34,532 nt of DNA, from contig JAGWWZ010000038.1 in NCBI GenBank assembly GCA_018970165.1, positions 1 through 34,532 on the forward strand, written 5' to 3'. Under the pieces are notes generated by a model, which had not been told where the DNA came from, searched no databases, and saw nothing but the letters and a program-made list of their open reading frames with translations. This stretch comes from Planctomycetota bacterium. Its GTDB lineage: Bacteria; Planctomycetota; Planctomycetia; Pirellulales; Pirellulaceae. A program made the position numbers and the translations under genes. Positions 27,970 to 34,532 of the stretch are shown here, one piece after another; position 1 is the first letter of the stretch; every line of letters starts with the position of its first letter.

Positions 27970-28857
27970 TCACCGGATTGGAGCCTCGATCGGGCCGAGC
28001 CTCAGAGCAACGAACGGCGACCGTGGCCACGTAGCGAGGTAGCCCGGGATCGGCTCATATCGGACGGTCAGTACTCCATTCGGTGCGGCCGCAAATCCTT
28101 GCCAGTAGCAATCCCGGAACTCGGCGTACGGCCCCCCCTCGGGGTGCGGCACCTCGTTAAATAGGTACGTGATGCCGAGGTAGCACCAGACCACTCCCCA
28201 CGGTGAGAAGGGCAGGCAAAAGTGTCCGAGCAGGCTCATCACACTCGACCCGATCCACGCCTCTAGGTATCGCCGCGGGTGTCGGGCGATCAACTGCACC
28301 GCTGGCCACAACGCGAACGCGGAACGCATCCGCCGAGTACGGGTTACGTTCAAGAAGCCAGCCGGGATGAAGAATACCACCAGATGGAACGCGGCTCCCA
28401 ACGCATACAACTCCCACTCACTCACGTCGAGGGTTGAAAGAGTGACTCGGGCATAGATTAGTCCAGATGGGATGATGAGCGTCGAGAAGATCGGGATAGC
28501 CAAAAAGAACAACAAGACCGGAACCCACGGGACGCTCCCGATGAAGGAATCGTTCGCCACCCGCAGCGCGAACCAGAGGTAGAGTGGCGAGAGATAGAGG
28601 TGAATCACCCCCACCGCCTGTAGCCCGCCACGGAGGTAGTGCCACAACCCAGCCTCCCAGTCAGGGAGGATCGGTGACGCCCCTTCGGCCAGTCGGAACA
28701 CCGCCTCACGCCGGTATCCGAGCAAGGCGAGCCAGCCGATGAATGGAATCAACAGCACCAGCCCGGCGGTCCAAATCTTGGACTTCCAGCGTGGATCGGC
28801 CACGATGTATCGGCTTGCGGAACTCCAGTCGAGTTGGCGAAGTGGCATGGTTATCAC
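27970..28857 (-). CDS. DUF4013-like multi-helix membrane protein
   Basis: The 295-residue protein carries about six hydrophobic helices: IWTAGLVLLIPFIGWLALLGY, HLYLSPLYLWFALRV, VPVLLFFLAIPIFSTLII, ELYALGAAFHLVVFFIPAGF, SSVMSLLGHFCLPFSPWG and others. The opening pair with DPRWKSKIWTAGLVLLIPFIGW and LGYRREAVFRLAEG matches DUF4013 proteins I know; function is unknown. The GTG start (28857) overlaps the upstream stop codon by four bases (GTGA), showing translational coupling; ATG 28848 is an alternative. Codon use looks more GC-rich than in flanking genes, as does the upstream gene, so the two may have arrived together. Confidence 0.65.
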   Translation of the reverse strand: MITMPLRQLDWSSASRYIVADPRWKSKIWTAGLVLLIPFIGWLALLGYRREAVFRLAEGASPILPDWEAGLWHYLRGGLQAVGVIHLYLSPLYLWFALRVANDSFIGSVPWVPVLLFFLAIPIFSTLIIPSGLIYARVTLSTLDVSEWELYALGAAFHLVVFFIPAGFLNVTRTRRMRSAFALWPAVQLIARHPRRYLEAWIGSSVMSLLGHFCLPFSPWGVVWCYLGITYLFNEVPHPEGGPYAEFRDCYWQGFAAAPNGVLTVRYEPIPGYLATWPRSPFVALRLGPIEAPIR

Positions 28858-29978
28858 TGAGGATTGGTCGCTGTGGGCAGGGTCCAGCCGGTTTCATCAC
28901 CCCGGACTGCCCACACACCCAAGGGTCGCAGGTGGGCTACGATCTCGTCAAACGTGATCAGCCCCATACACGCCATGGCCCCGATCTTCGGCGGTTGCCC
29001 ATCGAGCAGCTTTCGGGCCAGGATGATGGCTGGCGAACTAGGGGTTGCCGGGCCGTCGAAGTCGGTCACGATCGAGAGACGCCGCTCGATCGATATCCCA
29101 CCGTGATCACGCCCCCGAACCCAGACCGCCAGTGCGCCGTTCTTTGATCCAAGCGGGTAGAGCATCAGGGAAAGATTGAGGAATGTCCGGGCGTGCCGTT
29201 CGGGGCGCCAACCAAACAATCTTGCCGGAAACCGGCAAAGCGAAAGTAGGTAGTTGAGCAAATTGAGTTCTAACCCAGCTTGGAATCGGACGGTTCGCGC
29301 CCCGAACTCAGCCGGGAACAACTCCAATTCGGGGACATCGCAGTTGTGGACGCGACGGCGATTTACTGGCGGCGGAAATACCCGACGTTGAGCGTCGCCC
29401 CATCCGTCCCGGAGTACCCATCGCCCCCCGTCCCAGTACCGAATCTTCCGGCTCAGGTACGTCAAGACGGCGGCGATCGTGGAAGCCCCACGGGGATTTT
29501 GGTTTCCAGGGCTGAGCGCGGTGTGGATCTCATCGATGGTTGCGAACGCCGGTGCCATCTCGCGGACCATTGCGGATGTGATCGCAGGGGTCGAACTGGC
29601 ACCAGAAGTCACGAGCAGACCGCGACTGCGAGCCTTTTGATCTAAAGCCCCGATCCCGGCAACGAACTCGCGCCCATCGGACAGGTCGAGGTAGTGAGCA
29701 CCAGCTTCCAGGCAGATCGAGGCGACGCGGTAATCCGCTCCTTGGAAGGGCCCAGCGGCGTGGATGACAACAGCAGAATCTTCTATCGCAGCCCGAAGTG
29801 ACGCCGAGTCTTCGAGATTGCAGGGGACGAATTCAGCCCCGATGCGGTGGGCGAGATTGGACCCAACTCGAACGTCACGGCCCGCGATCCGAACACGGCA
29901 TCCAGGGTGGTGTACCAATGCCTCGGCGACCCGGCCGCCGAACACACCATAACCGCCCAGAACAGTCACTATTTGCAT
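28854..29978 (-). CDS. Saccharopine-dehydrogenase-like NAD(P)-binding protein
   Basis: The 374-residue protein starts MQIVTVLGGYGVFGGRVAEAL, a Rossmann GxGxxG-type fingerprint near 8-15. It continues HHPGCRVRIAGRD, ASLRAAIEDSAVVIHAAGPFQG and CLEAGAHYLDLSDGREFVAGI, the pattern of saccharopine-dehydrogenase-family (trans-acting enoyl reductase-like) oxidoreductases. The C-terminal half is alpha/beta with YLSRKIRYWDGGRWVLRDGWG. Substrate unknown; a reductase acting on a lipid-linked or amino-acid substrate is inferred from family members. ATG 29978 has no strong ribosome binding site. It precedes and overlaps the DUF4013-like gene. Confidence 0.75.
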   Translation of the reverse strand: MQIVTVLGGYGVFGGRVAEALVHHPGCRVRIAGRDVRVGSNLAHRIGAEFVPCNLEDSASLRAAIEDSAVVIHAAGPFQGADYRVASICLEAGAHYLDLSDGREFVAGIGALDQKARSRGLLVTSGASSTPAITSAMVREMAPAFATIDEIHTALSPGNQNPRGASTIAAVLTYLSRKIRYWDGGRWVLRDGWGDAQRRVFPPPVNRRRVHNCDVPELELFPAEFGARTVRFQAGLELNLLNYLLSLCRFPARLFGWRPERHARTFLNLSLMLYPLGSKNGALAVWVRGRDHGGISIERRLSIVTDFDGPATPSSPAIILARKLLDGQPPKIGAMACMGLITFDEIVAHLRPLGVWAVRGDETGWTLPTATNPQ

Positions 29979-30027
29979 GATTTCAAGTCGCTAAAGTACG
30001 CGAATGCCCAATGTCAATCGCTCTTGT

Positions 30028-30117
30028 TCAAGCGCCAGCGGCAACAGGGCCATCGCTTAGAATACTACAACTTGATTTTCTGCGCTGTCCAAGGTTCTCG
30101 TTCACCGCTTTGCTCCG
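30028..30117 (-). other. Candidate attC recombination site
   Basis: On the minus strand GACGGAGCAAAGCGGTGAAC (from 30117) starts the site. The plus-strand left arm CCAGCGGCAACAGGGCC (30035-30051) corresponds to ACGGCGGTAACGGGGCC of the site at 34353, and the right arm CGTTCACCGCTTTG is identical to that site over 14 bases. The arms GCGGCAAC and GCGGTGAAC pair with one extra G in the same place. The R' end GCTTGAA deviates from GTTRRRY. The stop codon of the truncated glycosyltransferase lies within it. Confidence 0.5.
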
Positions 30118-30615
30118 TCGAACCCGCCAATCGAATCAAAATCGCTCTTGTAGCACCAAAACATCCCGGCGCTGACACGATGCCATAGAACAAAGGGCAA
30201 AACGACCATGAGACTGCATGCTATCCCCAAAGACCATCGTTCGGGATAGATTCTGACGCCACCCCCGATGTACCGTCGAGTACTGAGCGTACGCATAACT
30301 TCTCCGAGCATGTTTCGCGACATCACGCTATCCGCATCGATCGTCACTATAATCTCCCCGGTCGCTGCCGAAACACCCGCATTCCGAATTCTGCTTACGT
30401 TGCGAGCATCTTCTCGGACGATGCGACAATCCAATGAAACAGCAATCTCCTCGGTTCGGTCATTGCACCGGTTCAGGACAACAATGTGCTCGAAATCGAT
30501 CGCTGCGAATTGTGCAGACTCAATTACCGACGAGACGCACGCTGCAAGGTGCTTTTCTTCATTATGAGCTGGTGTGATGACGGAAAGTTTCTTTTTTGAT
30601 ACAACGCCCCATCAT
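30102..30615 (-). pseudogene. Truncated, frameshifted family 2 glycosyltransferase
   Basis: The main frame reads VITPAHNEEKHLAACVSSVI, then IVVLNRCNDRTEE, NAGVSAATGEIIVTIDADS with the DxD-type motif, and SAGMFWCYKSDFDSIGGFDG, a GT2 A-fold. It stops at GAKR, where normal members continue another 60 or more residues. Upstream, ATG ATG at 30615/30612 is in another frame; a run of six A (30592-30597 on the complementary strand) lies where the frames would join, and losing one A would give MMGRCIKKKLSVITPAH. So it is either a pseudogene or slippage-controlled. Codons before the break have no in-frame start. Confidence 0.7.
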
Positions 30616-30640: not shown

Positions 30641-30722
30641 TCGAAAGCCGAACGCCGACAACCGATATCTTAGGTGCAATGGATTGCTCTGCATTTCGGA
30701 CATCTTTACGAGTTGGATGTCA
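30641..30722 (-). other. Doubtful attC-like site after the DKN-repeat lipoprotein gene
   Basis: The minus strand contains GTCGGCGTTCGGC near 30641-30655, one base off the GTTAGGC box, and plus-strand GCCGACAACCG parallels the inner arm of the better sites. The far arm GGACATCTTTACGAGTTG is only loosely similar. It lies between the stop codon of one ORF and the start of the next, as a cassette end would. Confidence 0.22.
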
Positions 30723-31358
30723 TTTGATCTTCGCACTTCGCCGAGGTCCTAGGTAGGTCCATTTTCCATCCGTAGCCTGCCCTCGATTAGGAACCAGCAC
30801 GGCGTACCGTTCATCGCGTTTCTGTTCGTCGTAAAGTACATTTACGTCTTGAAATTCCTCGCCGAACATCCTGACCACTTCGGCCTTAGAGCGCAGATAG
30901 CAAACGGATCGAACCGTACTCTTGTCTTCGATCACACGAAAGTTGCTAGGCTCTTCAACGTTCATTCTTAAGCAACCAATAAAGATGTGCTTTGAATCAC
31001 AGGCATACGGATACCCCAGGACTTCAAATGTTTCCGAATCGGCGTCGACAATGATGGAATTCCCAAAGTATGCGTTGTTCTTGTCTTTTGCGTACTCTGT
31101 ACCTTCGAATTGAACATAGGAACCAGGATCAAAACCTTCCAAGACAGAAATACCGTGATAGACGTGGTTTTTGTCGACAGCATAGTCTCCAGATTTGAGG
31201 ACACGGAACGTATCCTCATCGACATCCATTTCGTGGACTTGATATCCTGCCGCATTATTCGTCACAAAGGCCCATTTCCCGTCAATCTTCTTGTATCCGC
31301 TTTCGCAACCTGTCAGCAATAAAACCATCAAGCCAATGAGTATCGTCTCAAATCTCAT
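30720..31358 (-). CDS. Lipoprotein with DKN-type (DKNYY-like) repeats
   Basis: The 212-residue protein has a lipoprotein signal ending LLLTGC (Cys18) and three repeats of about 30 residues: YAVDKNHVYHG near 59-69, YAKDKNNAYFG near 89-99 and YACDSKHIFIG near 118-128. Each is followed by a D-P-x-S/T-F segment (GFDPGSYVQF, DADSETFEVL). This matches DKNYY-family repeats found in outer-membrane-associated lipoproteins and frequent among cassette proteins. Function is unknown. It has the strongest ribosome binding site in the window, AAGGAGG at 31364-31370, five to six bases from the ATG. Confidence 0.85.
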   Translation of the reverse strand: MRFETILIGLMVLLLTGCESGYKKIDGKWAFVTNNAAGYQVHEMDVDEDTFRVLKSGDYAVDKNHVYHGISVLEGFDPGSYVQFEGTEYAKDKNNAYFGNSIIVDADSETFEVLGYPYACDSKHIFIGCLRMNVEEPSNFRVIEDKSTVRSVCYLRSKAEVVRMFGEEFQDVNVLYDEQKRDERYAVLVPNRGQATDGKWTYLGPRRSAKIK

Positions 31359-31687: not shown

Positions 31688-31730
31688 GCGACAGTTAGAA
31701 TTCCGCTTTAGCGACAATTAGAATTCCGCT
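31688..31730. repeat. Left terminal repeats of the IS
   Basis: GCGACAGTTAGAATTCCGCT (31688-31707) is followed by GCGACAATTAGAATTCCGCT (31711-31730), 23 bases apart. The istA-frame stop TAA (31695-31697 on the minus strand) lies in the outer copy. Confidence 0.85.
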
Positions 31731-34055
31731 GTTTAATTTTTCCTGGCTCACGATGATGCATTGCGGTCTTGGCTGGCTCGGTCCTTGCTGGCTTGTTCGA
31801 GCCGAAAGCTCGGAACGTTGAGTTCCAAGATCACGCTGTGATGCACGAGTCGATCGATAGCCGCAGCCGTCGTCATTGGATCCTTGAAGATGCTCTCCCA
31901 CTTCGAGAACGGCAGGTTGCTGCTCAGCAGGATGCTCGATCTCTCGTAGCGATCTGCGATCAACGTAAAGAGCACTTCCATCTCCTCGCGACTCTGCTGA
32001 ACATAGCCCAAGTCGTCGATGATCAAGATCGAGAACCTCCCAATCTTCGATAACAGTTGCGGTAGTTTCAAGTCCCGCTTCGCGGCCAGAAGGTGCTGCA
32101 CCAACTTCACACACGGTGCAAAGCATACCGTATAGCCCGCTCGAACCATCGAATCCCCCAACGCATTGAGCAAGAGCGTCTTTCCCGTACCTGGACGACC
32201 AAAGATCAGCACGTTGCTCGGTTGCTTCAAGAACTCGCCCGTGCGAAGCAGTTCCATCTTTTGACGTACGGTCCTCGGCAATCGGGTCCAATCGATTTGA
32301 TCCCAGGTCTTGCTCCGCTCCAATTCCGATGCTTTTAAGCGTCGCTGGATTCGATTCTGGTTGCGTGTCTGGCATTCGAGGATCGTCAGCTCGTTGAGAT
32401 ACTCCAAGTGACTCCAGTTCTCTTTGGCCGCTTGCTCTGCGATGCTGACCGCCGAAGTTCGCACCGTAGGCAGGCGAAGCTTCTTCAAACGGGAAGCCAG
32501 TTCCGATGGGTTCAGTGGCGTTCTCGCATGCTCGATCGAATTCGCTTCCGAGGTCAGATTGTTGGTCATTTAGCACCTCCTTGTGCTCTAACAGGTCATC
32601 GTATGAGTCGAGATCCGGTATCTCGACCTCCACATCTCGCATGTTCGTTGCAGGCAGGGCCGGGTGAATTTCATCGAGCATGGCAAACGCCAGCTTCTTG
32701 GTCAGATTTTGGCCCATCGCCATCATTCGCTGCGCGATGGGTTCTACGACGGCCAGGCCCTCCTGTTTCGCGCATTGGAGCATTCGAAGATAAACGCGCG
32801 TCGCATGGGCATCGCCGAGGGTTTCTCCCAGGTAATCGAATGCCTTGCGGAACTCAAGCGTTGGAAACATATGCTCCCGGTACCGATAGTGAGCGAACGC
32901 ACCGGGCTTGCGGACCAAAGTGTCGATGACATGCCGAAAGTCAATGAATTCCTGCTTGCTGCCGATCAGTCGGGGTGCCTCGAAACGTCTCTTACCCGCG
33001 TACCAGAGTTCGATCTGGTCGGAATGAATTCGGATCGTCACGCGATGACCAATGAAGCAGCTTGGGATCGAATACCGATTCTGTTTGACAGTGATGATCG
33101 AGTTACTGCCCACCATGCAATCGATTTCCGTGTAGGTCGGAAACGGCTTGGGTGGCAACGAGGCGAGCACAGCTTGCTCTTCTTGAAATAATGTCTCACG
33201 TGGCTGGTTCCTTGTTGCGGCGCATCGCTTCAAAAACGCTTGGTACTCATCGACACCAGCGAAGTTGCGATCTCCTCGCACTCGCAAGCATTGATCGACG
33301 TGGTCTTTGAAATGCCCATGGGAAGACTCGCAATCGCCGTTCTCTTCGGGCGACCTCACGTTAATTCGATGAGGCTTGACTTCGAAATGCTCAAGCAGTC
33401 TTCGGAAGTTGGCTTGGAAATGCCGCTCGGTACTGAGATTGTTCACCGCGGCTGTCATGGAATCGAAACGAATGCGCTCCGTCAATCCACCCATTGCATG
33501 GAAGGCATTTTGAATCCCTCGAGCGACGGCTTCAAACGACTCGGATAAACAAACCTCGGCATACTCCCAGTTGGAGAATGTCAACACGCCATGAAACACC
33601 AGATGGTCGAACCGCTCCCCAGCGATCGTGATCTTCAGATCGTTCATGCTGGTGAAATCGATCGCCAGGACATCTCCTGCCAAATGCTCCTGGTCAAAGG
33701 TTACCTCTTGCTCGACGCGATGATCGATTTTCCAATCGCGAACACGTCGCTCCAAGGTCCTTTTCCATGTGGCGGGGAACGTTTCAGGGTGACGGGTTCG
33801 CATTTCTTCGAAAAGGATATAGGCCTTGAGCGCCGAGTCCTGCTGAAGCATCGCCTCGATCTCGGGCCAAAACGGCGCGAGTCGATCCGGATGCGTTCGG
33901 TAACTGCGTGGGCCTTTGTCTCGTGGAGGATCTTCTCCCTTGAGAATTCGCGATGCTGTCTTGGGATCCATCTTGCACTTCCTTGCGCACTGAGTGATGT
34001 TGAGGCCTTGGTTCCAAAGGCGACGTAAACGCGATTTCCGAATCTCCGTGATCAT
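31695..34055 (-). CDS. istA: IstA-type IS21 transposase with an unusually long reading frame
   Basis: DDE-type transposase. The N-terminal helix-turn-helix is RLRRLWNQGLNITQCARKCKMDPKTASRIL (about 8-38); the catalytic triad is likely Asp133 (LAIDFTSM), Asp198 (RFDSMTAAV) and Glu243 (ENGDCESSHG). A C-terminal beta domain follows to about 495, where normal IstA proteins of this size end. Here the frame stays open for another 290 codons across istB in a different frame, ending in the left terminal repeat. ATG 34055 has AGGAGG six bases upstream. IstA cuts and joins the IS ends. The extra C-terminal part has no recognisable domain and is probably non-functional. Confidence 0.9.
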   Translation of the reverse strand: MITEIRKSRLRRLWNQGLNITQCARKCKMDPKTASRILKGEDPPRDKGPRSYRTHPDRLAPFWPEIEAMLQQDSALKAYILFEEMRTRHPETFPATWKRTLERRVRDWKIDHRVEQEVTFDQEHLAGDVLAIDFTSMNDLKITIAGERFDHLVFHGVLTFSNWEYAEVCLSESFEAVARGIQNAFHAMGGLTERIRFDSMTAAVNNLSTERHFQANFRRLLEHFEVKPHRINVRSPEENGDCESSHGHFKDHVDQCLRVRGDRNFAGVDEYQAFLKRCAATRNQPRETLFQEEQAVLASLPPKPFPTYTEIDCMVGSNSIITVKQNRYSIPSCFIGHRVTIRIHSDQIELWYAGKRRFEAPRLIGSKQEFIDFRHVIDTLVRKPGAFAHYRYREHMFPTLEFRKAFDYLGETLGDAHATRVYLRMLQCAKQEGLAVVEPIAQRMMAMGQNLTKKLAFAMLDEIHPALPATNMRDVEVEIPDLDSYDDLLEHKEVLNDQQSDLGSEFDRACENATEPIGTGFPFEEASPAYGANFGGQHRRASGQRELESLGVSQRADDPRMPDTQPESNPATLKSIGIGAEQDLGSNRLDPIAEDRTSKDGTASHGRVLEATEQRADLWSSRYGKDALAQCVGGFDGSSGLYGMLCTVCEVGAAPSGREAGLETTATVIEDWEVLDLDHRRLGLCSAESRGDGSALYVDRRSLREIEHPAEQQPAVLEVGEHLQGSNDDGCGYRSTRASQRDLGTQRSELSARTSQQGPSQPRPQCIIVSQEKLNSGILIVAKAEF
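31748..32569 (-). CDS. istB: IstB-type AAA+ ATPase of the IS21 element
   Basis: The 273-residue helper protein selects the target and activates IstA. The N-terminal helical region (residues 1-115) is followed by Walker A FGRPGTGKT (123-131), Walker B ILIIDDLG (181-188), sensor SSNLPFSKW (216-224) and the C-terminal AAIDRLVHHSVILEL (236-250). Length and motif order are normal. GGAGG precedes ATG 32569 by six bases and lies inside the end of the conserved istA region, so translation is likely coupled. Ser-rich residues end the protein. Confidence 0.95.
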   Translation of the reverse strand: MTNNLTSEANSIEHARTPLNPSELASRLKKLRLPTVRTSAVSIAEQAAKENWSHLEYLNELTILECQTRNQNRIQRRLKASELERSKTWDQIDWTRLPRTVRQKMELLRTGEFLKQPSNVLIFGRPGTGKTLLLNALGDSMVRAGYTVCFAPCVKLVQHLLAAKRDLKLPQLLSKIGRFSILIIDDLGYVQQSREEMEVLFTLIADRYERSSILLSSNLPFSKWESIFKDPMTTAAAIDRLVHHSVILELNVPSFRLEQASKDRASQDRNASS

Positions 34056-34111
34056 GGCAAGCCTCCTGAAAAATGGTGCTTGCCACAGTGAAAACCAAAC
34101 CGCTTCACTCG

Positions 34112-34220
34112 GGAATTCTAATTGTCGCTGATCGCCACAAGTCGTTATGCTAGCGTTGCTTAGCGACAGGGAATTCTAATTGTCGCGGAAGACCAAATTC
34201 CGGGATTTCTAACTGTCGCT
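34112..34220. repeat. Right terminal repeats of the IS
   Basis: GGAATTCTAATTGTCGC occurs at 34112-34128 and 34170-34186, and GGGATTTCTAACTGTCGCT at 34202-34220, inverted relative to the left end. Two inner copies and one outer copy are unevenly spaced. Confidence 0.82.
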
Positions 34221-34320: not shown

Positions 34321-34352
34321 CTCCAGTCCAAATTCTTTGCCATACTTAAGCT

Positions 34353-34444
34353 CGCTAACGACGGCGGTAACGGGGCCGCCGCCAAGAGACTATGATTTCA
34401 ATACCCGCGTCGCTGGCGGCTCCCGTTCACCGCTTTGTTCTGCG
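34353..34444 (-). other. Candidate attC recombination site, best example
   Basis: The plus-strand left arm 34364-34380, reverse-complemented (GGCGGCCCCGTTACCGC), aligns to the right arm 34415-34433 (GGCGGCTCCCGTTCACCGC) with no mismatch and exactly two extra bases in the right arm. Extrahelical bases in one arm are the defining feature of integron attC sites. Outside the stem, minus-strand GCAGAACAAA (R'' side) and GTTAGCG (R' side, 34353-34359) are near-complementary and match the RYYYAAC/GTTRRRY pattern partly. The loop (34381-34414) is 34 bases. No attC in the known database was consulted. Confidence 0.65.
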
Positions 34445-34532
34445 ACGTTTCGGCTCACCATCATTCGATCGTGCTTCTCACGAGGAAGCAACATCGCGAC
34501 GTAGTGCGTCCCCGTTGCGGATCGGTCGATAT
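34390..34532 (-). CDS. C-terminal part of an ORF running into the attC-like site
   Basis: The frame is open to the right edge and reads IDRSATGTHYVAMLLPREKH, DRMMVSRNVAEQSGER and EPPATRVLKS before TAG. The last 17 residues are encoded by the attC-like arm and loop. I do not recognise the protein and only 46 residues are visible. Its frame through the site (AEQS from GCAGAACAAAGC) is the same as in the ankyrin gene (TEQR from ACAGAGCAAAGA). Confidence 0.4.
   Translation of the reverse strand, partial: IDRSATGTHYVAMLLPREKHDRMMVSRNVAEQSGEREPPATRVLKS

Follow-up and report, generated by a model that had tools for sequence, protein, structure and literature searches.

A very probable integron attC site with C as its second extrahelical base, as appears usual in its planctomycete family

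The hairpin at the right end of a 34,532-nt window (the whole stretch of DNA that was analysed, which is the entire contig C96 of a 5.2-Mb planctomycete genome assembled in 330 contigs) is very probably, judged from its sequence, an integron attC, a recombination site that bacteria use to acquire and exchange small gene cassettes, and belongs to a cassette within an array. Its second extrahelical base is C, which site counts present as a lineage-wide variant of one base in a known kind of element: C-type attCs appear to be the rule in the host family and not rare elsewhere. We lean towards the broader reading that a whole family normally carries C where G has been reported, in parts of PMC2727003, as the almost exclusive extrahelical base, and that the described integrase contact residues do not separate C-type from G-type hosts. 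The family used for these comparisons is probably Pirellulaceae, as suggested by the best named match of the host integrase (Rubripirellula sp., 66% identity).

The site spans 34350–34448, with the cassette direction on the minus strand; the plus strand is the 'bottom' strand, that is, the presumed recombining strand. In minus-strand order, it comprises an R'' box, CGCAGAAC (34437–34444, assigned from the sequence and from the equivalent position in three attCs beside the integron integrase, IntI), an L'' arm with both extrahelical bases in a T-N6-C layout (34415–34433), a loop between the two arms forming the variable terminal structure (34381–34414), a 17-nt L' arm without an extra base (34364–34380), and an R' box, GTTAGCGA (34352–34359, assigned from the sequence and from chain logic at other sites); both arms were placed from the sequence and a scan. 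The crossover presumably lies at G^TT in the R' box, the position known for integrons. On the plus strand, the left arm reads GCGGT-AACGGG-GCCGCC and the right arm GGCGGC-T-CCCGTT-C-ACCGC, and direct reading gives a stem of 17 bp, as 5+6+6, with the unpaired T34421 and C34428 confined to the right arm, none opposite them, and six pairs between them. On the loop side, the bulge-tolerant scan adds a third unpaired base and then two further pairs. The flanking plus-strand cores, TCGCTAAC on the left (34352–34359) and GTTCTGCG on the right (34437–34444), are of the AAC/GTT type and match RYYYAAC/GTTRRRY partly, in the inner AAC/GTT and in some of the outer letters. The site has several of the attributes by which an attC is recognised, namely an imperfect L''/L' palindrome with short unpaired spacers and a variable loop, inverted cores (AAC at the end, GTT at the start), and extrahelical bases in L'' only. 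The initial annotation of this DNA had described 17 paired bases, their coordinates, and one extra C and one extra T in the right arm, all of which direct reading confirmed; it was mistaken in assigning a Vibrio-like spacing of three pairs, as six pairs (N6) separate the unpaired bases. Its interpretation of the hairpin as an attC is supported by the sequence tests run on the site.

Folding of both strands, which the initial annotation had proposed as a check, gives an energy that is only moderately low (z of -2.88 for the plus and -2.26 for the minus strand, with equally good folds in 2/200 and 4/200 shuffles), and by folding energy alone the site is only moderately unusual. In a scan of the window for cores with bulged arms, the site scores 29 and one unrelated place (6712) scores 27. 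When 200 Markov copies of the window were scanned (single strand, every bulge pattern admitted), one match scored 29 and none scored more. A simple core-box scan, in which the site was absent among the 25 matches listed, was superseded by the bulge-tolerant scan, which disregards bulge identity and sees long-armed sites only. All covariance models were built from the host genome's own sites. Model R2, constructed from 13 sites on other contigs with the window site left out, finds the site at 79.1 bits (E 3e-21, full length 1-99/99), a leave-out test that is not wholly independent, because its training sites were gathered by an earlier model seeded with four sites, one of them the window site. 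When the 92-nt site was searched as DNA against the genome, six matches came back, the credible ones being the site itself and a 23-nt piece at 30093; few such matches are expected, since the sites keep structure rather than sequence.

The genome contains both cassette arrays and an integron integrase, the company in which an attC is found, with the window contig unjoined to the IntI contig. One strong IntI is encoded at C233:2573-3508 (409.6 bits against the TIGR02249 cut-off of 265 bits), and its reading frame is open over the full length. Upstream of IntI, moving away from the gene, there is an attI-like core, GTTCGTGC, followed by three cassettes (in the order C, B, A from IntI), each terminated by an attC constructed like that of the window. 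The R'' boxes of attCs C, B, and A (GCACGAAC, GGACGAAC, and GACAGAAC) are each an 8/8 reverse complement of their own cassette's start, these starts being GTTCGTGC at the attI junction, GTTCGTCC at R' of site C, and GTTCTGTC at R' of site B, a complementarity that reads as the trace left by cassette circles. These three attCs are physically adjacent to IntI, the arrangement expected of a sedentary chromosomal integron, and the window contig is unjoined to them in the assembly. In total, 14 sites at E <= 1e-5, including the four that built the model, occur over four contigs of the genome. Contig C144 (5.2 kb) carries sites from end to end, and the arrays of C144 and C159 are likewise unjoined to IntI in the assembly. 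Ten proteins were submitted to Pfam, and the cargo ORFs with a match encode an RDD membrane protein, a 23S rRNA-intervening-sequence-type protein, a glyoxalase-family protein, and a DUF6882 protein. Two further features of these arrays were observed. A 48-nt inverted repeat of CTCGTACTCGTACTC units, 88% complementary (L012:1454-1501 and 1888-1935), sits within the ORF of the first cassette, at its two ends, and encloses the 23S rRNA-intervening-sequence-type domain. Additionally, in the C144 array (L031), arm sequences are common to the site pairs 1093/2224, 3646/5012, and 4165/4598 and differ from the other arms there, which suggests that cassettes of different origin lie next to each other.

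In the window, the minus strand read from the contig end runs from the terminal part of an ORF through the attC and a little of the next cassette to an insertion sequence, and then to a DKNYY-family ORF, a glycosyltransferase ORF, and a decayed attC. The first ORF (34390–34530, minus strand, recognised by translation) is the 3' end of the window attC's own cassette ORF, with 46 codons, open at the contig end, and its stop codon falls inside the attC loop. The insertion sequence (31688–34219, minus strand), which we take to be IS21-like, was delimited by repeated terminal GCGACA(A/G)TTAGAATTCC ends, its ORF (31695–34055, 786 aa), and a Pfam match to Mu-transpos_C_2; it separates the attC from the rest of the array remnant. 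Its ends carry a repeat of about 20 nt, twice on one side and three times on the opposite side, and no target duplication was seen flanking 31688–34219. Past the insertion sequence, the DKNYY-family ORF (30720–31358, minus strand; PF13644, E 8.8e-23) is possible cassette cargo, and a partial glycosyltransferase-2 ORF (30102–30434, minus strand; PF00535, E 1.9e-8) ends in the degenerate attC (30024–30123, minus strand), the second match of R2 in the window (32.4 bits, E 1.8e-7). This decayed site, with GGAGC for GAAC in R'' and a mismatched right arm, is the probable distal end of the array remnant, and a saccharopine-dehydrogenase-type ORF (28854–29978) follows it.

These neighbours bear on a sub-case of the attC reading, in which the site is a genuine attC in a relic cluster without integrase (CALIN) and is immobile. 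The insertion sequence and the decayed attC may be taken as signs of a dying array, the window contig is, as noted, unjoined to IntI, and attC matches without an IntI at E <= 1e-70 occur in at least 56 of the 149 family genomes. Moreover, the last 300 bases before the contig end (34532) share no 12-mer with the tested ends of contigs C233, C159, and C144, and a 15-mer comparison with the same ends likewise found none; because the contig end matches no tested contig end, the window attC may belong to a separate cluster that lacks an integrase, or else to the far end of the IntI array. Against immobility, the site is intact in stem, bulges, and cores, and the genome's full-length, open IntI could work in trans, and we therefore consider a relic possible but rather doubtful. 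The survey of the 149 family genomes, in which up to 27 candidates were scored per genome, recorded attC-type sites in at least 130 and IntI at E <= 1e-70 in 76. Two single-contig genomes (G105 and G006) have at least 24 and at least 20 attC matches, respectively, without an IntI at that threshold, pointing to arrays without integrase.

For a working attC, the following course is predicted. The single-stranded plus strand would fold into the hairpin, and the genome's IntI would bind the paired R and L boxes, holding the flipped-out T34421 and C34428. IntI would then cut the R' core at the minus-strand GTT, its likely position being 34357–34359, and the cut site would recombine with attI or another attC, so that the cassette with its 3' end at 34390–34530 would be inserted or excised. 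The sequence data support the structure, its covariation, an IntI that retains the usual active-site residues, an adjoining array, and past cassette exchange in the genome, while hairpin formation, strand choice with C, the cut position, and current activity are predictions.

Covariation and the chaining of cassettes bear on the remaining alternatives. Among the four seed sites (window site included), 91.1% of cells are paired and 10/20 pairs have two-sided changes, and in 104 matches from the host genome and 29 family loci, 97.2% of cells are paired, with two-sided changes in 16/20 pairs. The cells with two-sided changes in these 104 matches number 528, compared with 166.2 +/- 15.1 in shuffles and at most 84 in slid controls, a margin that is partly built in because the alignment was fitted to the structure. 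Compensatory changes with pairing retained, as anticipated by the initial annotation, are thus present, and the pattern it had named as pointing to an ordinary dispersed repeat (pairing lost, primary sequence kept) did not occur, as other copies diverge in sequence and still pair. In the chain test, R'' was compared with the start of its own cassette in neighbouring pairs of sites from the host genome's other contigs and the family loci, restricted to sites that have a gap in the left arm and none in the right, and to pairs less than 1600 nt apart. Outside GTT, 38/63 pairs match at 5/5, 11 at 4/5, and 14 at 3/5 or less, against a background of 5/5 in 2.3% of all combinations and in 2/95 comparisons with a site's own downstream R'; for the host genome alone, 6/13 pairs match at 5/5. 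The window was excluded from this test, its attC having its own cassette start past the contig end, and CGCTAAC, the sequence that should partner its R', stands beside no site in the window.

Similar hairpins in so many family genomes might be explained by a dispersed palindromic repeat of the ordinary kind (REP/MITE-like) that has no function in integrons. Such a repeat would not be expected to produce a match of R'' with the previous site's R' far above chance, nor does it fit stems that diverge in sequence with pairing retained, or the orientation of sites at the family's IntI loci, where 88/99 are opposite to intI, as in ordinary integrons; we regard it as highly improbable. A rho-independent terminator or other RNA element, which a GC-rich hairpin located where an ORF ends somewhat resembles, deserves equally little credence, as it needs no AAC/GTT cores, one-sided bulges, or the cassette-start complementarity of the group, and no Rfam family reached its gathering score anywhere in the window.

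With the hairpin read as an attC, the identity of its second extrahelical base can be compared across sites. The initial annotation had flagged C in place of the usual G on the presumed recombining strand as a notable variant: the C itself is real (34428), but within the host family it is the rule and not the exception. In the host genome, C is present in 14/15 sites readable by the scan and in 14 of the 15 readable among 16 model matches, one being unreadable. For the family, 20 IntI loci were picked by integrase and not by attC; they were hand-chosen from the 76 genomes with IntI, and most of them lie on long contigs. The 99 sites read at 18 of these loci, which are not independent within one locus, comprise 87 with C, 8 with G, and 4 with A; one shuffled copy of each locus gave zero matches. 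Of these 99 sites, eight have a T-N3-C layout. The counts omit sites with right-arm gaps or fewer than two left-arm gaps. In a wider set of 80 IntI loci from many phyla, 32 loci yielded 60 sites, of which 18 have C, 31 have G, 6 have A, and 5 have T, and the majorities of these 32 loci were C in 10, G in 13, A in 3, T in 3, and mixed in 3. The bulge reading is not fixed to C, because one planctomycete locus (L066) gives 12 T-N6-G sites. As a separate observation, three attCs at a deltaproteobacterial IntI locus (L102) lie on the intI strand, the reverse of the other loci listed beside it. The G next to the bottom-strand AAC, reported for most attCs in parts of PMC2727003, is present in 98/99 family sites. 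Since its second extrahelical base is C34428 and not G, we file the window site as an attC outside the T-N6-G subclass.

The host IntI, aligned to the Vibrio enzyme (PDB 2A3V), keeps the six active-site residues, R135, K160, H267, R270, H293, and Y302, as well as the T pocket (P232, H240, H241). In the G pocket, K209, Y210, and W219 are kept, and Q145 and W157 are replaced by K and R, respectively; IntI1 has K156 and R168 at these two positions, according to parts of PMC3053210. An adaptation of IntI to fit C was considered and rejected, as the five G-pocket residues are nearly alike in 20 family IntIs and 37 others drawn from the 80 loci of many phyla. Position 145 is K in 20/20 family IntIs versus 34/37 others, position 157 is R in 14 and H in 6 of the 20 versus R in 34/37, position 210 is Y in 17/20 versus 37/37, and positions 209 and 219 are K and W in all IntIs compared. 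None of the listed contact residues in these alignments distinguishes hosts of C-type sites, as a group, from those of G-type sites.

The host IntI also has a conserved N-terminal extension of about 110 aa (L012:2171-2572, contig C233) ahead of the usual core-binding domain, which was observed in L063, L064, L066, L071, and 14/20 family IntI loci as well. The extension profile matches at E <= 2.4e-18 at these 14 loci, 13 of which were in its training set, and more weakly beyond that set in L122, L129, L087, L103, L134, L099, and L133. The extension may be a duplicated, diverged core-binding domain, a reading based on a profile comparison with the core-binding domain (60.6% probability) and on two similar four-helix runs in a structure model of the L063 protein, which is poor overall (mean pLDDT 54.7), with residues 11-100 at 76-91 by block. 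No description of this extension was found in the open-access literature searched.

Several known systems resemble the window site in part. As described in portions of PMC3053210, T-N6-G attCs, such as those of ant(3'')-Ia cassettes, share with it the AAC/GTT cores and L'' bulges six nucleotides apart with T first, whereas the window site has C as the second bulge and differs in the outer R-box letters. According to the same portions, T-N6-C sites are excised as well as T-N6-G sites, and better by several integrases. The attC of blaVIM-2, a known natural C-type example, has C as its second bulge, and laboratory mutants of attC dfrA1 have the T-N6-C layout itself; there, C belongs to one cassette or a mutant, whereas here it is found in most sites examined in a family. 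The Vibrio cholerae VCR (G16, T20, T24), as treated in parts of PMC2727003, likewise has its bulges in one arm, and its G16C mutant tolerates C, whereas its bulges follow in three-nucleotide steps with G instead of N6 with C. Those parts describe the extrahelical G as a selector of the recombining strand and report that changing it to C in the VCR lowers attC x attI recombination 2.7-fold and raises attC x attC recombination 1.2-fold, from which the authors conclude, working with IntI1, that the nature of this base is not essential. Planctomycete attCs have already been collected and modelled in a taxon-specific Planctomycetes attC model (PMC8352920), in the main text of which the word 'extrahelical' is absent.

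No report of the C rule itself was found in what was read of the open-access literature. C tolerance was already known by experiment, and, as far as these searches show, what is new is the breadth of C in nature; the mechanistic question was opened earlier by experiment, and the gain here is breadth. The mostly-C family offers a natural counterpart to the VCR G16 replacement experiment and suggests that the second extrahelical base can differ from G across a whole lineage. Attempts to find attCs, or arguments about them, that expect G would undervalue planctomycete cassettes. If the reading is true, the C tolerance published for IntI1 on VCR mutants would be the natural state of a lineage, the near-universal G would reflect sampling or history and not need, and known integrases should accept the cassettes of this family, which would form a large natural pool.
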